Source of the DNA: Xenophilus aerolatus
Lineage (GTDB): Bacteria; Pseudomonadota; Gammaproteobacteria; Burkholderiales; Burkholderiaceae_C
Assembly (NCBI GenBank): GCA_029968055.1
Contig: JASCNX010000003.1
Coordinates: 372,001-436,000, forward strand
Direction: 5' to 3'
Length of the DNA stretch: 64,000 nt
Of the stretch, positions 807 to 6,247 are shown piece by piece. Position numbers and translations under genes: made by a program. Within the stretch, counting starts at the first letter, position 1. Each line of letters opens with the position of its first letter. Under the pieces are notes generated by a model. It searched no databases. It was given only the letters and a program-made list of their open reading frames with translations, and had not been told where the DNA came from.

Positions 807-3803
807 ATGAGTCGACATCTGCCCCTGCGGGTCAGCGCGGCGCTGTATGGCGGCGCGGCCGCGCTCGTGGTGGCCGTGGCCGTGGCTGCCGCCGCGATGG
901 TCTGGCAGATGCGCGAGAGCGCGCTGGCCGACACCGAAGGGCAGGCCACGCGCTTCGCCAGGGGCGCCGAGGCCGCAATCAATCGCAGCCTGGTGGGCGC
1001 CGACGTCCTGCTGGCCAGCCTGGGCGCCGTCGTGGCCGGCAGCACCGCCGAGCAGATGCGGGGTGAGCCGGTGCGCGGCCGCGTCGTCTCGGCGATGCGC
1101 GAGATGGCGCGCGAGAGCCTGCTGGTGCGGCAGTTCGCGCTTGTGCAGTCCGACGGCCGCGTCCTCGCGCCGGCCACGGCCCAGGGCATGGCGATACCGC
1201 TGGAACTGCCCGACGGCTTCGTGCGCGAGGTGCTGGAGCAGCCGGTGTCGAGCCTGCAGGTGAGCGAGCCGCGCGTGAGCCCGGTGAGCAGCCAGCGGGT
1301 GCTCTACCTGGCGCGGGCCCTGGTCCTGCACGACGGCACGCGGCTGGTGGCGGTGGCCGAAGTCCCCGTGTCCACCTTCACCACCATCCTCACCCAGGGG
1401 GCTGACATCGCCGGCCTCGAGGTGACGCTGGAGCGCAGCGGCGGTGCGGTGCTTGCGAGCATGCCGCCGCGCGACGACCCGGCCGTGCGGGCGGCGCGGC
1501 AGCCGCTGAACGAGCGCGAGGCCGACGGCCATCCGAAGTTCATGGCCTCACGCCTGACCGGCGTGCCGGCCGTGGTGGTGTACCGGCCCACGCTGCACCG
1601 CAACCTGCTGGTGGTGGCCGGCATTCCGCTGGAGGTGGCGCTGGCCGACTGGCAGGTGCAGCGCGACTTCATCATCGGCGTGGCCATCGTGCTCGTGCTG
1701 CTGGTGTTGGCGGTGGCGGCCTTCGCGCTCCACCAGTTGCGCCGGCAGTGGTGGCACCGTGCCAGCCTGCAGCGGTCCAAGGCCACGCTCGACCAGGCGC
1801 TCGACGCCATGAGCGACGGCTTCGTGCTGCTCGATGCCGACGGCCGGGCCCAGGTGTGGAACCAGCGGCTCCTCGACCTCTTTCCCGGCATCGAACCCCT
1901 CGTCGGCGGCACGACGGCGTTCCAGCTGCCCGGCGACGATCCCGCGCGCGCGGGTGCCGGCGCCCTCGGCCTGGGGGACGGCGAGTACGAGCTTCGCCTG
2001 GCCGACGGCCGCCGCATCCTGGCGATGCGCAGCCCCACACCCGACGGCGGCCAGGTCTGCGTGTTCCGCGACGTGACCGAGCGGCTGCGCCAGATCGCCG
2101 AGGTGGTGGAAGGGCGGGCCCAGCTGCAGGCCACGCTCGACGCGGTTCCCGACGCGATGCTGGAGGTGGGACTGGATGGCCTGTGCCATCGCTACCACCC
2201 GCCGCGCACGGCATCGACCACGGCGCCGTTTCCGGGCGACCCGGTCGGGCGCACGCTGGCCGAGCTGTTCACGCCCGACGCGGCGAGCCAGGTCATGAAC
2301 GCGCTGCGCGAGGCCTACCAGCAGGGCCTGTCGGCCGGCCAGCAGATCGAGCGGCGCGCCGAACAGGGCACGGCCTGGTTCGAGCTCTCGGTCTCGCGCA
2401 TGGACGTGGGCGAGGCGCAGGACGCGCGCTTCATCGTCATGCTGCGCGACATCACCGAGCACAAGGCCGCCGCGCAGGAGATCGAGCACCTCGCCTTCTA
2501 CGACACGCTCACCGGCCTGCCCAACCGGCGGCTGCTGCTGCACCGGCTGCAGGCCGTGGTCGAGAACAACGCGCACCGCGGCCGCCAGGGTGCCCTGCTG
2601 TTCCTCGACCTGGACCACTTCAAGACCCTGAACGATGCCCAGGGCCAGGCCATGGGCGACGTGCTGCTGCGCCAGGTGGGCGAGCGGCTGCGCGCGCTGG
2701 TCGGCGTGGGCGACACGGTGGCGCGGCTGGGCGGCGACGAGTTCGTGATCCTGGTCGACAACCTCGGCATCGACCCGGTCCGCGCCGCCGTGCAGACACA
2801 GGCCTTCGGCGAAGGGGTGCTGGCCGACCTGGGCCGGCCCTACCAGCTGGGCAGCTACACCTACCACGGCACCAGCAGCATCGGCGCGACGGTCTTCGGC
2901 GACCGGCCGCAGTCGCTGGACGAGCTGCTCAAGCAGGCCGACATCGCCATGTTCCACGCCAAGCAGGCGGGCGGCAACGGGCTGCGCTTCTTCGAGGCGG
3001 CGATGCAGACCACCATCACCGCGCGCGCCACGCTCGAGAACGAACTGCATGCCGCCCTCAAGGGGCACCAGTTCACGCTGCACTACCAGCGCCAGGTCGC
3101 CGCGGCCGGCGAGATCACCGGCGCCGAGGTGCTGATCCGCTGGCGCCATCCGCACCGCGGCCTGATCCCGCCGGCGGCCTTCATCGACGTGGCCGAGGGC
3201 ACCGGGCTCATCGTGCCGATCGGCATCTGGGTGCTCGAGCAGGCCTGCCGCCAGCTGGAGCAGTGGAGCCACCATCCGCGCCGCCGGCACCTGCAACTGG
3301 CCGTGAACGTGAGCGCGCGGCAGTTCCAGCGCGAGGACTTCGCCGACCAGGTGCGCGAGGTGTTCATCCGCACCGGCGCCGATCCCTCGCGGCTGAAGAT
3401 CGAGCTGACCGAGAGCCTGCTGCAGGACAAGGTCGAGGAAACCATCCGCAAGATGAAGTCGCTGGCCGCCATCGGCGTGCGCTTCGCGATGGACGACTTC
3501 GGCACCGGCTACTCGTCGCTGTCGTACATGGCGCAGCTGCCGCTGCACCAGGTCAAGATCGACAAGTTCTTCGTCGGCGGCATCGGCACCAACGCCAAGC
3601 TCGAACTGCTCATCCAGACCATCATCGGCATGGCCCGCAGCCTCGACCTCGAGGTGGTGGCCGAAGGCGTCGAGACGCCCGAGCAACTGGCCTTCCTGGA
3701 GCGGCACGGCTGCCGCCTGTTCCAGGGCTACCTGTTCGGCCGGCCGCTGGACATCGAGGAGCTGGAGCGCGAGCTCGACGTCGAACTGGTCAGCCCGGGC
3801 TGA
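807..3803 (+). CDS. membrane-bound PAS/GGDEF/EAL diguanylate cyclase/phosphodiesterase
   Basis: A 998-residue c-di-GMP enzyme. A first membrane helix (about residues 10-31) and a second (about 288-308, FIIGVAIVLVLLVLAVAAFA) flank a periplasmic sensor region of about 250 residues. Two PAS-like segments follow, then a GGDEF domain with intact GGDEF at residues 642-646 and an EAL domain. The EAL signature reads EVL (residue 774), but the other catalytic motifs are present: NVSARQF, ELTESLL, DDFGTGYSSL and AEGVET. An inhibitory RxxD site at the usual place before GGDEF is not visible. Synthesis and hydrolysis are both possible; net activity cannot be read. It starts 4 bases after a periplasmic binding-protein gene and is probably co-transcribed with it. 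Confidence 0.93.
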   Translation: MSRHLPLRVSAALYGGAAALVVAVAVAAAAMVWQMRESALADTEGQATRFARGAEAAINRSLVGADVLLASLGAVVAGSTAEQMRGEPVRGRVVSAMREMARESLLVRQFALVQSDGRVLAPATAQGMAIPLELPDGFVREVLEQPVSSLQVSEPRVSPVSSQRVLYLARALVLHDGTRLVAVAEVPVSTFTTILTQGADIAGLEVTLERSGGAVLASMPPRDDPAVRAARQPLNEREADGHPKFMASRLTGVPAVVVYRPTLHRNLLVVAGIPLEVALADWQVQRDFIIGVAIVLVLLVLAVAAFALHQLRRQWWHRASLQRSKATLDQALDAMSDGFVLLDADGRAQVWNQRLLDLFPGIEPLVGGTTAFQLPGDDPARAGAGALGLGDGEYELRLADGRRILAMRSPTPDGGQVCVFRDVTERLRQIAEVVEGRAQLQATLDAVPDAMLEVGLDGLCHRYHPPRTASTTAPFPGDPVGRTLAELFTPDAASQVMNALREAYQQGLSAGQQIERRAEQGTAWFELSVSRMDVGEAQDARFIVMLRDITEHKAAAQEIEHLAFYDTLTGLPNRRLLLHRLQAVVENNAHRGRQGALLFLDLDHFKTLNDAQGQAMGDVLLRQVGERLRALVGVGDTVARLGGDEFVILVDNLGIDPVRAAVQTQAFGEGVLADLGRPYQLGSYTYHGTSSIGATVFGDRPQSLDELLKQADIAMFHAKQAGGNGLRFFEAAMQTTITARATLENELHAALKGHQFTLHYQRQVAAAGEITGAEVLIRWRHPHRGLIPPAAFIDVAEGTGLIVPIGIWVLEQACRQLEQWSHHPRRRHLQLAVNVSARQFQREDFADQVREVFIRTGADPSRLKIELTESLLQDKVEETIRKMKSLAAIGVRFAMDDFGTGYSSLSYMAQLPLHQVKIDKFFVGGIGTNAKLELLIQTIIGMARSLDLEVVAEGVETPEQLAFLERHGCRLFQGYLFGRPLDIEELERELDVELVSPG

Positions 3804-3809
3804 GGCGCC

Positions 3810-5474
3810 TCACGCCGCCGACGCGGGGCGGCGCAACCCGGCCATCGCCTCGGGGCCGAGCGTGCAGACCTTCAGCGCCTGCGTCCGGCCGCGGATCACG
3901 AGGTCCACGCGGGGCTGGCCGTCCAGCCTCAGCCCCGCCTGCGCGGCCGCGAATTCCGAGAGCACCAGCCGGGCGCCCGCGTCCTTGCTGTGGTCCTGCA
4001 GGCGGCTCGCGGTGTTCACCACTTCGCCGACGGCGGTGAGTGTCGTCGTGTCGAGGTAGCCCACCTCGCCCACCGCCGCAGGCCCCGCGTGCAGGCCCAT
4101 CCCGAAGTCCAGTTGCTGGCCGAACTCGGAAGCGAAGCCGGCGCCCCACGCGCCCAGCTCGGCGTCGATGCGCAGGGCCGCATCGACGGCGGCGCGGCAG
4201 GCCGACGGCAGGTCGCTTTGCAGGCCGAAGATGGCCATCACGCTGTCGCCGATGAACTGGTTGGGAACGCCGCCGCTGGCCCGCACGGCCTCGCCCACCA
4301 GCGAGAAGTACCGGTCGAGCACGTAAACCAGGTCGAAGGGCCACTGCCGCTCGGCCAGGCCCGACCAGCGCCGCAGGTCGACGAAGAGGACGGCCACCTC
4401 GCGCTCCGTGCCGAAGCGCCGCGGGGGCAGGGTCGACGGCGGCGCGAACAGCGGCAGCACGTCGATGTCGGCGTTCGGGCGCAGCTGGCACGCCAGGCGC
4501 ACGTCGGGCGCCGCATGCACCCGCGCGAGCGTGCGGGCTTCCTCGGCCGACGGCGCGGGCAGGGCGCCCGCAGCGGCCCGCACGCGCACGCGGCAGGTGG
4601 AGCACCGCGCCCGGCCGCCGCAGACCGACAGGTGCGCGATGCGGTGTGCGCGGCTGGCTTCGAGCACCGACCAGCCGCGCGGCACCGCCACCGTGCGATC
4701 CGGGTAGCGCAATGTGAGCATCGGCGCGCCCGTCACTCGGCCCTTCAGGCCGCGAGCGGCGCGGGCGAGCAGCAGGGCCGCCAGTGCCGCGGCGTACGCC
4801 CAGCGGACCCGTTCCGCGGCGGCGTCGAGTGCTTCGCCCTGTCCGTGGCCCTGAGAGGGCGCCGACGGCGATGTCCAGGCGATCTCGCGTCCCATGGCCA
4901 TGAAGCCCGCGGCGGCCGAGAGCGGCAGCAGCAGCGCCAGGGCGAAGAGCATCGGCGCCGCGCGGCGCCACGGCGCGCGCGACCGCAGCGCCAGGTGCAG
5001 GCCGAGGCAGCCGTGGGCCCAGGCCGCCGTCATCATCGCGAGCTGGAACAGCGCACCGGGCGTGCCCCACAGCCCGCCCACCACGCGCAGGTAGGAGCCG
5101 TCGATGCCGTAGGCCTCGTGCGCCCAGCGCATCGCCGTCAGGTGCGCTGCCAGCAGCAGCGGCAGCGACAGGCCCAGCACCAGGCGCAACGCCTCGATCC
5201 AGGGCATACGCAGCGTGCGGCGCTCCCACAGCGCGGCGACGGCCATGCCGATGTGCACCGACGCCGCGCCATACAGCAGCACCGTGCCCGGCAGGCTGTG
5301 CCAGACGGCGCGGGCCACCGCCAGCACCGCCTCGGCAGCCGCGAGCGACACCAGCCCCACGGCATGGTTGAGCAGATGCAGGCTCACGTAGGCCATCAGC
5401 ACCAGCCCGCTGGCCCACCGCAGGTCGCGGCGCGAAGGCCATGGGGACGGTCGAGGAGGCGGGCCTGCAATCAT
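3810..5474 (-). CDS. class III adenylate/guanylate cyclase with membrane and [2Fe-2S] ferredoxin domains
   Basis: A 554-residue three-part protein. The N-terminal ~235 residues contain about six membrane helices carrying several histidines (HLLNH, SVHIG, AAHLT, WAHG), resembling the haem-b anchors of succinate dehydrogenase/fumarate reductase. A ferredoxin domain follows with C285-x5-C291-x2-C294 and C329. The C-terminal class III cyclase domain has both metal aspartates (D366 in FVDLRRWS, D410 in GDSVMAIFG) and the transition-state Asn/Arg in VNTASRLQ, so it should be active. The layout suggests cyclic nucleotide output controlled by redox state. The start at 5474 is 35 bases from the divergent Crp/Fnr gene. 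Haem binding is inferred, and ATP versus GTP preference is unknown. Confidence 0.9.
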   Translation of the reverse strand: MIAGPPPRPSPWPSRRDLRWASGLVLMAYVSLHLLNHAVGLVSLAAAEAVLAVARAVWHSLPGTVLLYGAASVHIGMAVAALWERRTLRMPWIEALRLVLGLSLPLLLAAHLTAMRWAHEAYGIDGSYLRVVGGLWGTPGALFQLAMMTAAWAHGCLGLHLALRSRAPWRRAAPMLFALALLLPLSAAAGFMAMGREIAWTSPSAPSQGHGQGEALDAAAERVRWAYAAALAALLLARAARGLKGRVTGAPMLTLRYPDRTVAVPRGWSVLEASRAHRIAHLSVCGGRARCSTCRVRVRAAAGALPAPSAEEARTLARVHAAPDVRLACQLRPNADIDVLPLFAPPSTLPPRRFGTEREVAVLFVDLRRWSGLAERQWPFDLVYVLDRYFSLVGEAVRASGGVPNQFIGDSVMAIFGLQSDLPSACRAAVDAALRIDAELGAWGAGFASEFGQQLDFGMGLHAGPAAVGEVGYLDTTTLTAVGEVVNTASRLQDHSKDAGARLVLSEFAAAQAGLRLDGQPRVDLVIRGRTQALKVCTLGPEAMAGLRRPASAA

Positions 5475-5509
5475 GTGCGGCCGAGCATAATCCGCCGCCG
5501 TCGACCCGC

Positions 5510-6247
5510 ATGACCGCCCCGATCCGATCCACCCTCGCCCTGCGCCGCATCGCCCTGCTCGACGGCCTGGACGACGCGCGCCTGGACCGCATCGCCCAGG
5601 CCTGCGCCTGGCACCGCGTGGCGGCAGGCCAGCCCCTGCTGCTGCGCGCGCAGGACCGTGGCGAGGTCTTCTTCCTGGTGGACGGTCGCGTGCGGGTCAC
5701 CACCTACGCGGCCAATGGCCGTCAGGTGACGTTCCGCGACACCGCGGCCGGCGAGCTGGTGGGCGACATCGCGGCGATCGACGGCCAGCCGCGCTCGGCC
5801 GACGTCGTCACGCTGGAGGACAGCGTGGTCGCCGTGCTCGACCGGGCCACCTTCCTCGCGCTGCTGCGCGAGGTGCCCGAGTTGTCGCTGCGCGTCATGC
5901 AGCGGCTCGCGCAACTGGTGCGGCAGCTGTCCGAGCGCGTCATCGACCTGAGCACCCTGGGTGTGCAGAACCGGCTGCATGCCGAGCTGCTGCGCATGGC
6001 GCGGGCGGCCGGTGCGTCGGGCAACACCGCGCGCCTGGTGCCGTCGCCGCGCCATGTGGACCTGGCCGGCCAGATCAGCACCAACCGCGAACAGGTCACG
6101 CGCGAGCTGAACGCGCTGGCGCGCGCCGGGCTCCTGCGCAAGGAGGCCGGCGCGCTCGTGGTCGTCGATGTCTACCGGCTCGCCCGCATGGTGGCCGAAG
6201 TGCGCGGCGAGGCCGCGCCGAGGGCCTCGGGCGACGTGCTCAGTTGA
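5510..6247 (+). CDS. Crp/Fnr family transcriptional regulator
   Basis: A 245-residue regulator with an N-terminal cyclic-nucleotide-binding beta-barrel, a dimerisation helix (about residues 110-135) and a C-terminal winged HTH (recognition region around STNREQVTRELNALARAGLL). The phosphate-binding cassette, GELVGDIAAIDGQPRSADV, keeps the G-[E/D]-x(n)-R-S-A pattern of true cNMP binders. No Fnr-type cysteine cluster is seen. The ATG at 5510 was chosen because domain homology starts just after it; an upstream in-frame ATG at 5441 would overlap the divergent cyclase. A CATAAT box at 5486-5491 could be its -10. The divergent cyclase makes a local signal/receptor pair plausible. The last 8 bases overlap the convergent DoxX gene. 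Confidence 0.9.
   Translation: MTAPIRSTLALRRIALLDGLDDARLDRIAQACAWHRVAAGQPLLLRAQDRGEVFFLVDGRVRVTTYAANGRQVTFRDTAAGELVGDIAAIDGQPRSADVVTLEDSVVAVLDRATFLALLREVPELSLRVMQRLAQLVRQLSERVIDLSTLGVQNRLHAELLRMARAAGASGNTARLVPSPRHVDLAGQISTNREQVTRELNALARAGLLRKEAGALVVVDVYRLARMVAEVRGEAAPRASGDVLS

Follow-up and report, generated by a model that had tools for sequence, protein, structure and literature searches.

A CyaC-type redox cyclase gene and a divergent Crp-family regulator gene in Xenophilus aerolatus as a candidate redox-to-transcription module

Class IIIb nucleotide cyclases in which a ferredoxin lies between a six-transmembrane (6TM) anchor and the catalytic domain have been described as a cluster (30 sequences from alpha- and beta-proteobacteria), with four intramembrane haem histidines and two predicted haems (eLife 2016, PMC4821796). 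CyaC of S. meliloti is described as a quinone-responsive adenylate cyclase with two haem b and a [2Fe-2S] cluster (PMC10463352; PMC9552081); the residues given for it in print are K410, T484, N491 and R495, its gene neighbours are the TetR gene cycR and the LysR gene smc01817, and Clr, the CRP that serves it, is encoded elsewhere (PMC10463352). Clr is reported to respond to both cAMP and cGMP and to contact its ligand through G85, E86, R95, S96, T140 and T141 (PMC10127613), and in Rhodospirillum centenum gcyB, gcyC and cgrA are described in one cluster, with CgrA responding to cGMP (PMC4681086). The CyaC authors also raised the question of how the many cyclases that share one messenger keep their signals apart (PMC10463352).

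Here, a CyaC-like cyclase gene adjoining a divergent crp gene was analysed in a 64,000-nucleotide stretch of a Xenophilus aerolatus contig (the window). The preferred reading, to which a probability of about 0.68 is assigned, is that the two genes form a dedicated module running from respiratory redox state through a cyclic nucleotide to transcription, of which the anatomy, the residue conservation and the pairing were observed and the chemistry would follow that of CyaC and Clr.

Layout and occurrence of the gene pair

The open reading frames, Pfam matches and models agree with the earlier note in placing at 3810-6247 a 6TM/[2Fe-2S]/class III cyclase gene divergent from a Crp-family regulator gene, and the 35 bases it gave between them are exact (Table 1). 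An alternative ATG for crp at 5441 overlaps the cyclase gene; the N-termini of the orthologues align from 5510. On the other side, a gene for a PAS-GGDEF-EAL protein of 998 aa (window 807-3803) is convergent with the cyclase gene, and at one related locus (L006) a gene comparable in size and position alone adjoins the pair. A near-identity search for plasmid copies returned two records, which match the EAL neighbour gene only, and no record spanning the cyclase-crp pair.

Table 1. Positions of the cyclase, the regulator and their parts in the window.
Feature	Position	Strand	Basis
CyaC-like 6TM-haem / [2Fe-2S] / class III nucleotide cyclase, 554 aa, ATG at 5474	3810..5474	-	ORF, Pfam, alignment, AlphaFold model
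Class III cyclase domain, residues 356-539, D366/Q406/D410/T480/N487/R491	3858..4409	-	Pfam, model, alignment
Fer2 [2Fe-2S] domain, residues 260-333, C285-x5-C291-x2-C294-x34-C329	4476..4697	-	Pfam, alignment
Membrane domain, residues 15-247, putative diheme-b anchor, His33/His37/His74/His111/His154 on four helices	4734..5432	-	model, His counts, hydropathy
Divergent intergenic region, 35 bp	5475..5509		sequence
CGAGCATAAT, instance of shared (T/C)GAGCATAA(T/G) element, contains -10-like CATAAT	5482..5491	+	intergenic comparison
Crp-family transcription regulator, 245 aa, ATG 5510	5510..6247	+	ORF, Pfam, alignment, AlphaFold model
Putative phosphate-binding cassette, residues 81-101, G85/D86/R95/S96/A97	5750..5812	+	alignment, Clr contacts as described in PMC10127613
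HTH_Crp_2 DNA-binding domain, residues 155-227, recognition helix R193-E194...R198	5972..6190	+	Pfam, alignment, model

Related loci were taken from genome contigs (27) and from surveys of the family, the order and the phylum, in which the cyclase was matched in 21 of 250 genomes (18 over most of the protein and 3 within residues 10-293 only), 11 of 399 genomes (5 of which also belong to the family set) and 50 of 398 genomes, respectively. From the phylum survey 25 new full-length loci were used; another 14 full-length matches, and 8 that cover the ferredoxin-cyclase part only, were left out. Near copies (L009, L010, L020 and L025) and duplicate records (L011 = L038 and L042 = L023) were excluded before counting. 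Cyclase alignment A1 comprised 25 paired and 20 unpaired sequences, and the later alignment 25 paired and 45 unpaired ones (n=70). In the tree, the cyclase of a record titled Frankia sp. RB7 (L022) falls with Bradyrhizobium-type relatives, and the label may be wrong.

Conservation of the gene pair, which the earlier note had named as a check, was observed in 28 distinct records, where crp is adjacent and divergent to the cyclase gene with gaps of 15-379 bp by the start choices made; the paired relatives include Comamonadaceae bacterium ALPHA2B, a Pseudomonadota MAG, Pseudacidovorax, Paracidovorax and Acidovorax. The pair accompanies 13 of the 18 near-full-length cyclase matches among the 250 family genomes (9 genera) and 17/27 genome-contig loci, the remaining 10 being of alphaproteobacterial type. 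Five family genomes carry a full-length cyclase without crp, seven carry unpaired Crp homologues only, and a second, unpaired Crp homologue is present in 3 of the 13 paired genomes. The pair is rare and patchy (13/250 family genomes), but it is kept together where present. A Crp profile search detected no Crp-family ORF in the flanks of the 46 other full-length cyclase loci (0/46), which reached about 2-6 kb to either side for 21 loci (apart from L112, where the contig stops at the 3' end of the cyclase gene) and 1.5 kb to either side for the other 25; the same profile detected all 12 own-genome cNMP loci tried, the window Crp included.

In the cyclase tree the paired rows form one clade with support 100/99, present in 100% of 200 bootstrap trees. 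Its sister (fork 98/80) consists of four unpaired rows (L097, L098, L099 and L108) with broken catalytic residues, and L113, which has intact catalytic residues and no Crp nearby, falls outside both clades. In the Crp tree 24/25 paired rows group together (92/90), L044 lies in an unresolved fork, and monophyly of the paired rows was recovered in just 46% of bootstrap trees. The cyclase and Crp distance matrices are correlated (r 0.83; 0/2000 permutations as high), as shared species ancestry would likewise give. That a CyaC-type cyclase gene and a Crp-family gene came to lie side by side by chance would accord with the 46 relatives in which no such neighbour was found, indicating that the family needs none; this explanation is disfavoured and very improbable, as the divergent arrangement is kept in 28 distinct records and in 9 genera among the 250 family genomes, the pair falls in one clade (100/99), and an intergenic element is common to 20/25 loci.

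Several side observations were made among the relatives. The four sister-clade proteins keep the haem histidines and the Fer2 cysteines, with degenerate cyclase residues among positions 366, 406, 487 and 491. In two of them, from one genus (L097:4561-7070 in G223 and L099:3608-6052 in G139), a divergent ECF-type sigma-70 gene adjoins the 6TM-ferredoxin-pseudocyclase gene, the two being 67.5% identical to each other; no such match was found in L098 and L108 among their available ORFs. In the former two, the redox protein may conceivably have been reused together with a sigma factor. Proteins of about 250 aa that are homologous to the membrane domain and have no ferredoxin or cyclase part were seen at L100:4912-5667, L101:4443-5192 and L102:4855-5610, and their scanned neighbours are mutually unrelated. 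At L104:2970-9000, about 2.4 kb separate an unpaired Crp homologue, which has an R-S-T cassette, from a SAM-cyclase-AAA protein of at least 912 aa, which is open at the end of the stretch.

Membrane anchor, ferredoxin and catalytic domain of the cyclase

The AlphaFold model of the cyclase (mean pLDDT 86.7, pTM 0.67) exhibits six membrane-length helices (residues 15-39, 61-84, 92-122, 139-163, 167-201 and 210-247) and an additional short helix (44-58), followed by ferredoxin-like and then class III cyclase parts. Since the six helices are only modestly hydrophobic (best 19-residue means of 1.24-2.12), the count of six spans rests on the AlphaFold model and on the described family. His33, His74, His111 and His154 are histidine in 70/70 aligned cyclases and His37 in 68/70, and the four Fer2 cysteines (C285, C291, C294 and C329) are cysteine in 70/70, so the His-rich six-helix domain that the earlier note had described is upheld by the model and these counts, as is its C-x5-C-x2-C...C ferredoxin. 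Pfam Fer2 matches the window cyclase above cut-off (E 1.5e-7) and was also matched in 45/45 members of A1 (E up to 1); the nearest solved ferredoxins are an adrenodoxin homologue and putidaredoxin. As for a relation of the anchor to the cytochrome b of succinate dehydrogenase or fumarate reductase, Sdh_cyt was matched in 1/45 members of A1 (E 0.82), and a PDB sequence search with residues 1-198 gave zero matches at E up to 10, so that neither search gave a significant match to succinate dehydrogenase cytochromes; the best 50 matches of a fold search were dominated by the cyclase domain.

Pfam Guanylate_cyc covers residues 358-498 (E 2.3e-10). Among the 25 paired cyclases the metal aspartates D366 and D410 and the transition-state residues N487 and R491 are invariant, and the class IIIb threonine position 480 holds Thr in 20 and Ser in 5. 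The catalytic domain, called intact in the earlier note, thus keeps D366, D410, T480, N487 and R491, but the place of the ATP-selecting lysine is taken by Gln406, as in 25/25 paired cyclases. Because Gln stands there also in 24 of the 45 unpaired relatives (Lys in 17 and other residues in 4), Gln406 is not special to the pair, and its absence of lysine is a sequence difference from CyaC that does not define the CyaC-type cluster overall; two Rhizobium relatives (L024 and L029) carry Lys at the aligned place. With Gln in place of Lys, ATP selection as in CyaC cannot be assumed. Guanylyl cyclases usually carry Glu at the base-selecting position, and mycobacterial Rv0386 has Gln there and is mainly an adenylyl cyclase. 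Among the best 50 matches of the fold search, the closest solved relatives of the domain are cyanobacterial CyaC, Cya2 (labelled guanylyl cyclase) and photoactivated cyclases.

The Crp-family regulator and the intergenic region

The regulator matches cNMP_binding (PF00027, E 3.9e-18) and HTH_Crp_2 (PF13545, E 4.1e-9), both over cut-off, and its AlphaFold model (mean pLDDT 89.6) shows the Crp fold, with Mycobacterium CRP, GlxR and Clr as the best PDB matches, Clr being third by E-value (TM 0.80). By sequence, Clr is the best solved relative (7pza, E 2.1e-19). At the positions of the described Clr contacts the window Crp has G85, D86, R95, S96, L140 and S141. Among the 25 paired Crps G85, R95 and S96 are invariant, the ribose-contact position 86, Glu in Clr, holds D in 18, L in 4, E in 2 and V in 1, the base-contact position 140, Thr in Clr, is Leu in 25/25, and position 141 is S in 17 and T in 8. 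Of the unpaired Crp homologues (n=10), 4 retain R95, 5 retain S96, 10 retain G85 and 8 have L140; Leu140 is therefore not specific to the pair. As 56/245 columns are invariant among the paired Crps, and 15 of these 56 are kept in at most 5/10 of the more divergent unpaired Crps, the invariance of R95 and S96 is weak evidence when taken alone. The phosphate grip looks constrained in the paired Crps, and the ribose and base contacts are altered. The cassette of true cyclic-nucleotide receptors that the earlier note had seen is thus present as R95-S96-A97 with G85, but Asp86 replaces the ribose-contact Glu and Leu140 the base-contact Thr, which weakens the statement that the protein is a cAMP receptor and not the statement that it would work like one. 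The mutation T127L, at the E. coli CRP equivalent of position 140, is described as frequent in CRP* alleles, presumably lowering the need for cAMP (PMC2743635), and the paired Crp, with Leu140, could therefore be partly ligand-independent.

The same module may use cGMP, or both nucleotides, instead of cAMP, a tentative possibility that overlaps with the preferred reading, so that the odds of the two are not additive. It is favoured by the invariant Gln406 and Leu140 of the paired proteins and by the presence of Cya2 among the closest solved domains in the best 50 matches; neither substitution is pair-specific in the counts above (24/45 and 8/10), and both the Glu of typical guanylyl cyclases and the mainly adenylyl cyclase Rv0386 tell against it. 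The described receptors fit it, since Clr takes both nucleotides and CgrA takes cGMP (PMC10127613, PMC4681086). Given Gln406 in the cyclase and D86/L140 in the Crp, either cAMP or cGMP may be the ligand.

The genome itself has 5 Guanylate_cyc matches (4 beyond the window cyclase) and 13 cNMP_binding matches (12 beyond the window Crp), and, of 12 loci of this genome aligned to the Crp profile, the RSA cassette is carried by three (L085, L087 and L089) in addition to the window Crp. These numbers, together with the published CyaC working with an unlinked CRP, Clr (PMC10463352), would suit an arrangement in which other Crp-like proteins read a general cAMP pool supplied by the cyclase, with the neighbouring Crp regulating only the cyclase gene, or an unrelated regulon through another cue. 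This arrangement is unlikely in view of the pair staying divergent within one clade and of R95 and S96 being invariant in the paired Crps.

Between the two genes, the (T/C)GAGCATAA(T/G) element was found with at most one mismatch to TGAGCATAAT in 20/25 paired intergenic regions, in those always oriented toward crp; its core (T/C)GAGCATAAT is common to the same number of loci, which are related and hence do not represent 20 independent conservations. It was not found in the intergenic regions of L035, L040, L043, L044 and L045. Within the window GAGCATAATC (up to one mismatch) was found once, as against a mean of 1.30 in shuffles; as this frequency is no rarer than chance, only conservation supports the element. 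GAGCATAATNNNC is unique in the genome, at this locus. The shared element may form the core of a promoter, either that of crp or a shared one. No standard sigma-70 promoter was found in 5300-5650, where CATAAT stands without a recognisable -35. Two further candidates were rejected: as a regulon motif, TGAGCATAAT with at most one mismatch gave 45 genome matches, mostly TGAGCATGAT or TGAGCATCAT, vs 11 for the reversed control, and no regulon is derivable from them; as a canonical autoregulatory Crp palindrome, TGTGA-N6-TCACA reached at best 5-7/10 positions per region (n=25), with no shared site.

The candidate circuit and its relation to known systems

In the proposed circuit, the membrane domain would bind two b haems through the conserved histidines and pass electrons to and from both the quinone pool and the [2Fe-2S] domain. 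This redox exchange would determine how active a dimeric class III cyclase is, and the cyclase would form a 3',5'-cyclic purine nucleotide, most probably cAMP. The Crp from the divergent gene would bind this nucleotide through its R95/S96 cassette and, when ligand-bound, alter transcription, perhaps including that from the 5475-5509 promoter region. For the window pair we infer the haems, the cluster, the quinone response, the cyclase activity and the ligand binding from S. meliloti CyaC and Clr. Counted for the circuit were the His and Cys ligands (70/70), the catalytic residues (25/25), the divergent pairing in 28 records, the single paired clade with its correlated distances, R95/S96 (25/25), Clr as the best solved relative by sequence and the Crp-less sister clade of four rows with its broken catalytic residues; counted against it were Gln406, D86/L140, the weakness of R95/S96 when taken alone, the lack of a canonical Crp site, the absence of a significant match of the membrane domain to succinate dehydrogenase cytochromes, the patchiness, the 5/18 family cyclase matches without crp, possible cross-talk with other cyclases and Crp-family proteins, and the 46% monophyly in the Crp tree. 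The self-contained redox-to-cAMP/cGMP-to-transcription circuit of the earlier note is supported in part, by its conserved ligand and catalytic residues, its divergent pairing within one clade and its CyaC homologue; its self-containment is made uncertain by the 4 further Guanylate_cyc and 12 further cNMP-domain matches.

A bolder form of this reading, which is rather doubtful, would make the pair an insulated one-to-one redox circuit, driven by the quinone redox state, of a cyclase with non-canonical base selection (Gln406) and a co-inherited Crp with a non-canonical D86/L140 pocket, with cGMP, both purine nucleotides or another cNMP as messenger; the sister lineage without the pair would have lost the catalytic residues and retained its redox protein in some other function. 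A lineage that keeps a redox-sensing cyclase next to its putative receptor provides a compact two-gene system for studying insulation, the choice of ligand and the sensing of quinone, with the sister clade and its broken catalytic residues as a natural contrast to the paired clade.

Compared with known systems, the domain order described for S. meliloti CyaC matches that of the window cyclase, and by printed residue numbers K410/T484/N491/R495 have the spacing of Q406/T480/N487/R491; the two differ in the base-selecting residue, Lys in CyaC and Gln here, and in their surroundings, with TetR and LysR neighbours and an unlinked Clr in the CyaC account and an adjoining divergent crp in the window. 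The ferredoxin-linked 6TM class IIIb cluster 1 shares the haem-His 6TM anchor and the ferredoxin before the catalytic domain, whereas a Crp neighbour, present here, is unmentioned in the consulted portions of PMC4821796. Clr (7pza/7pzb, CRP cluster G, a receptor of cAMP and cGMP) is like the window Crp in its described G85, R95 and S96 contacts at identical numbering, and unlike it in having E86, T140 and T141 in place of D, L and S; nor do the accounts of Clr cited here describe it as encoded beside cyaC, as the window crp is beside its cyclase gene. As described, the R. centenum gcyB-gcyC-cgrA locus likewise unites guanylyl cyclase subunit genes with a dedicated CRP-type cNMP receptor, which controls cyclase gene expression (PMC4681086), and compared by description only it is an operon-like cluster, unlike the divergent window pair. 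Searches of openly licensed literature yielded no account of a CyaC-type cyclase that has a divergent Crp gene as its partner; the architecture of the CyaC-type cyclase is already known, and its pairing with its own receptor gene looks new. The window locus combines two ideas, the CyaC-type redox cyclase of S. meliloti and the genetically dedicated Crp of gcyB-gcyC-cgrA.
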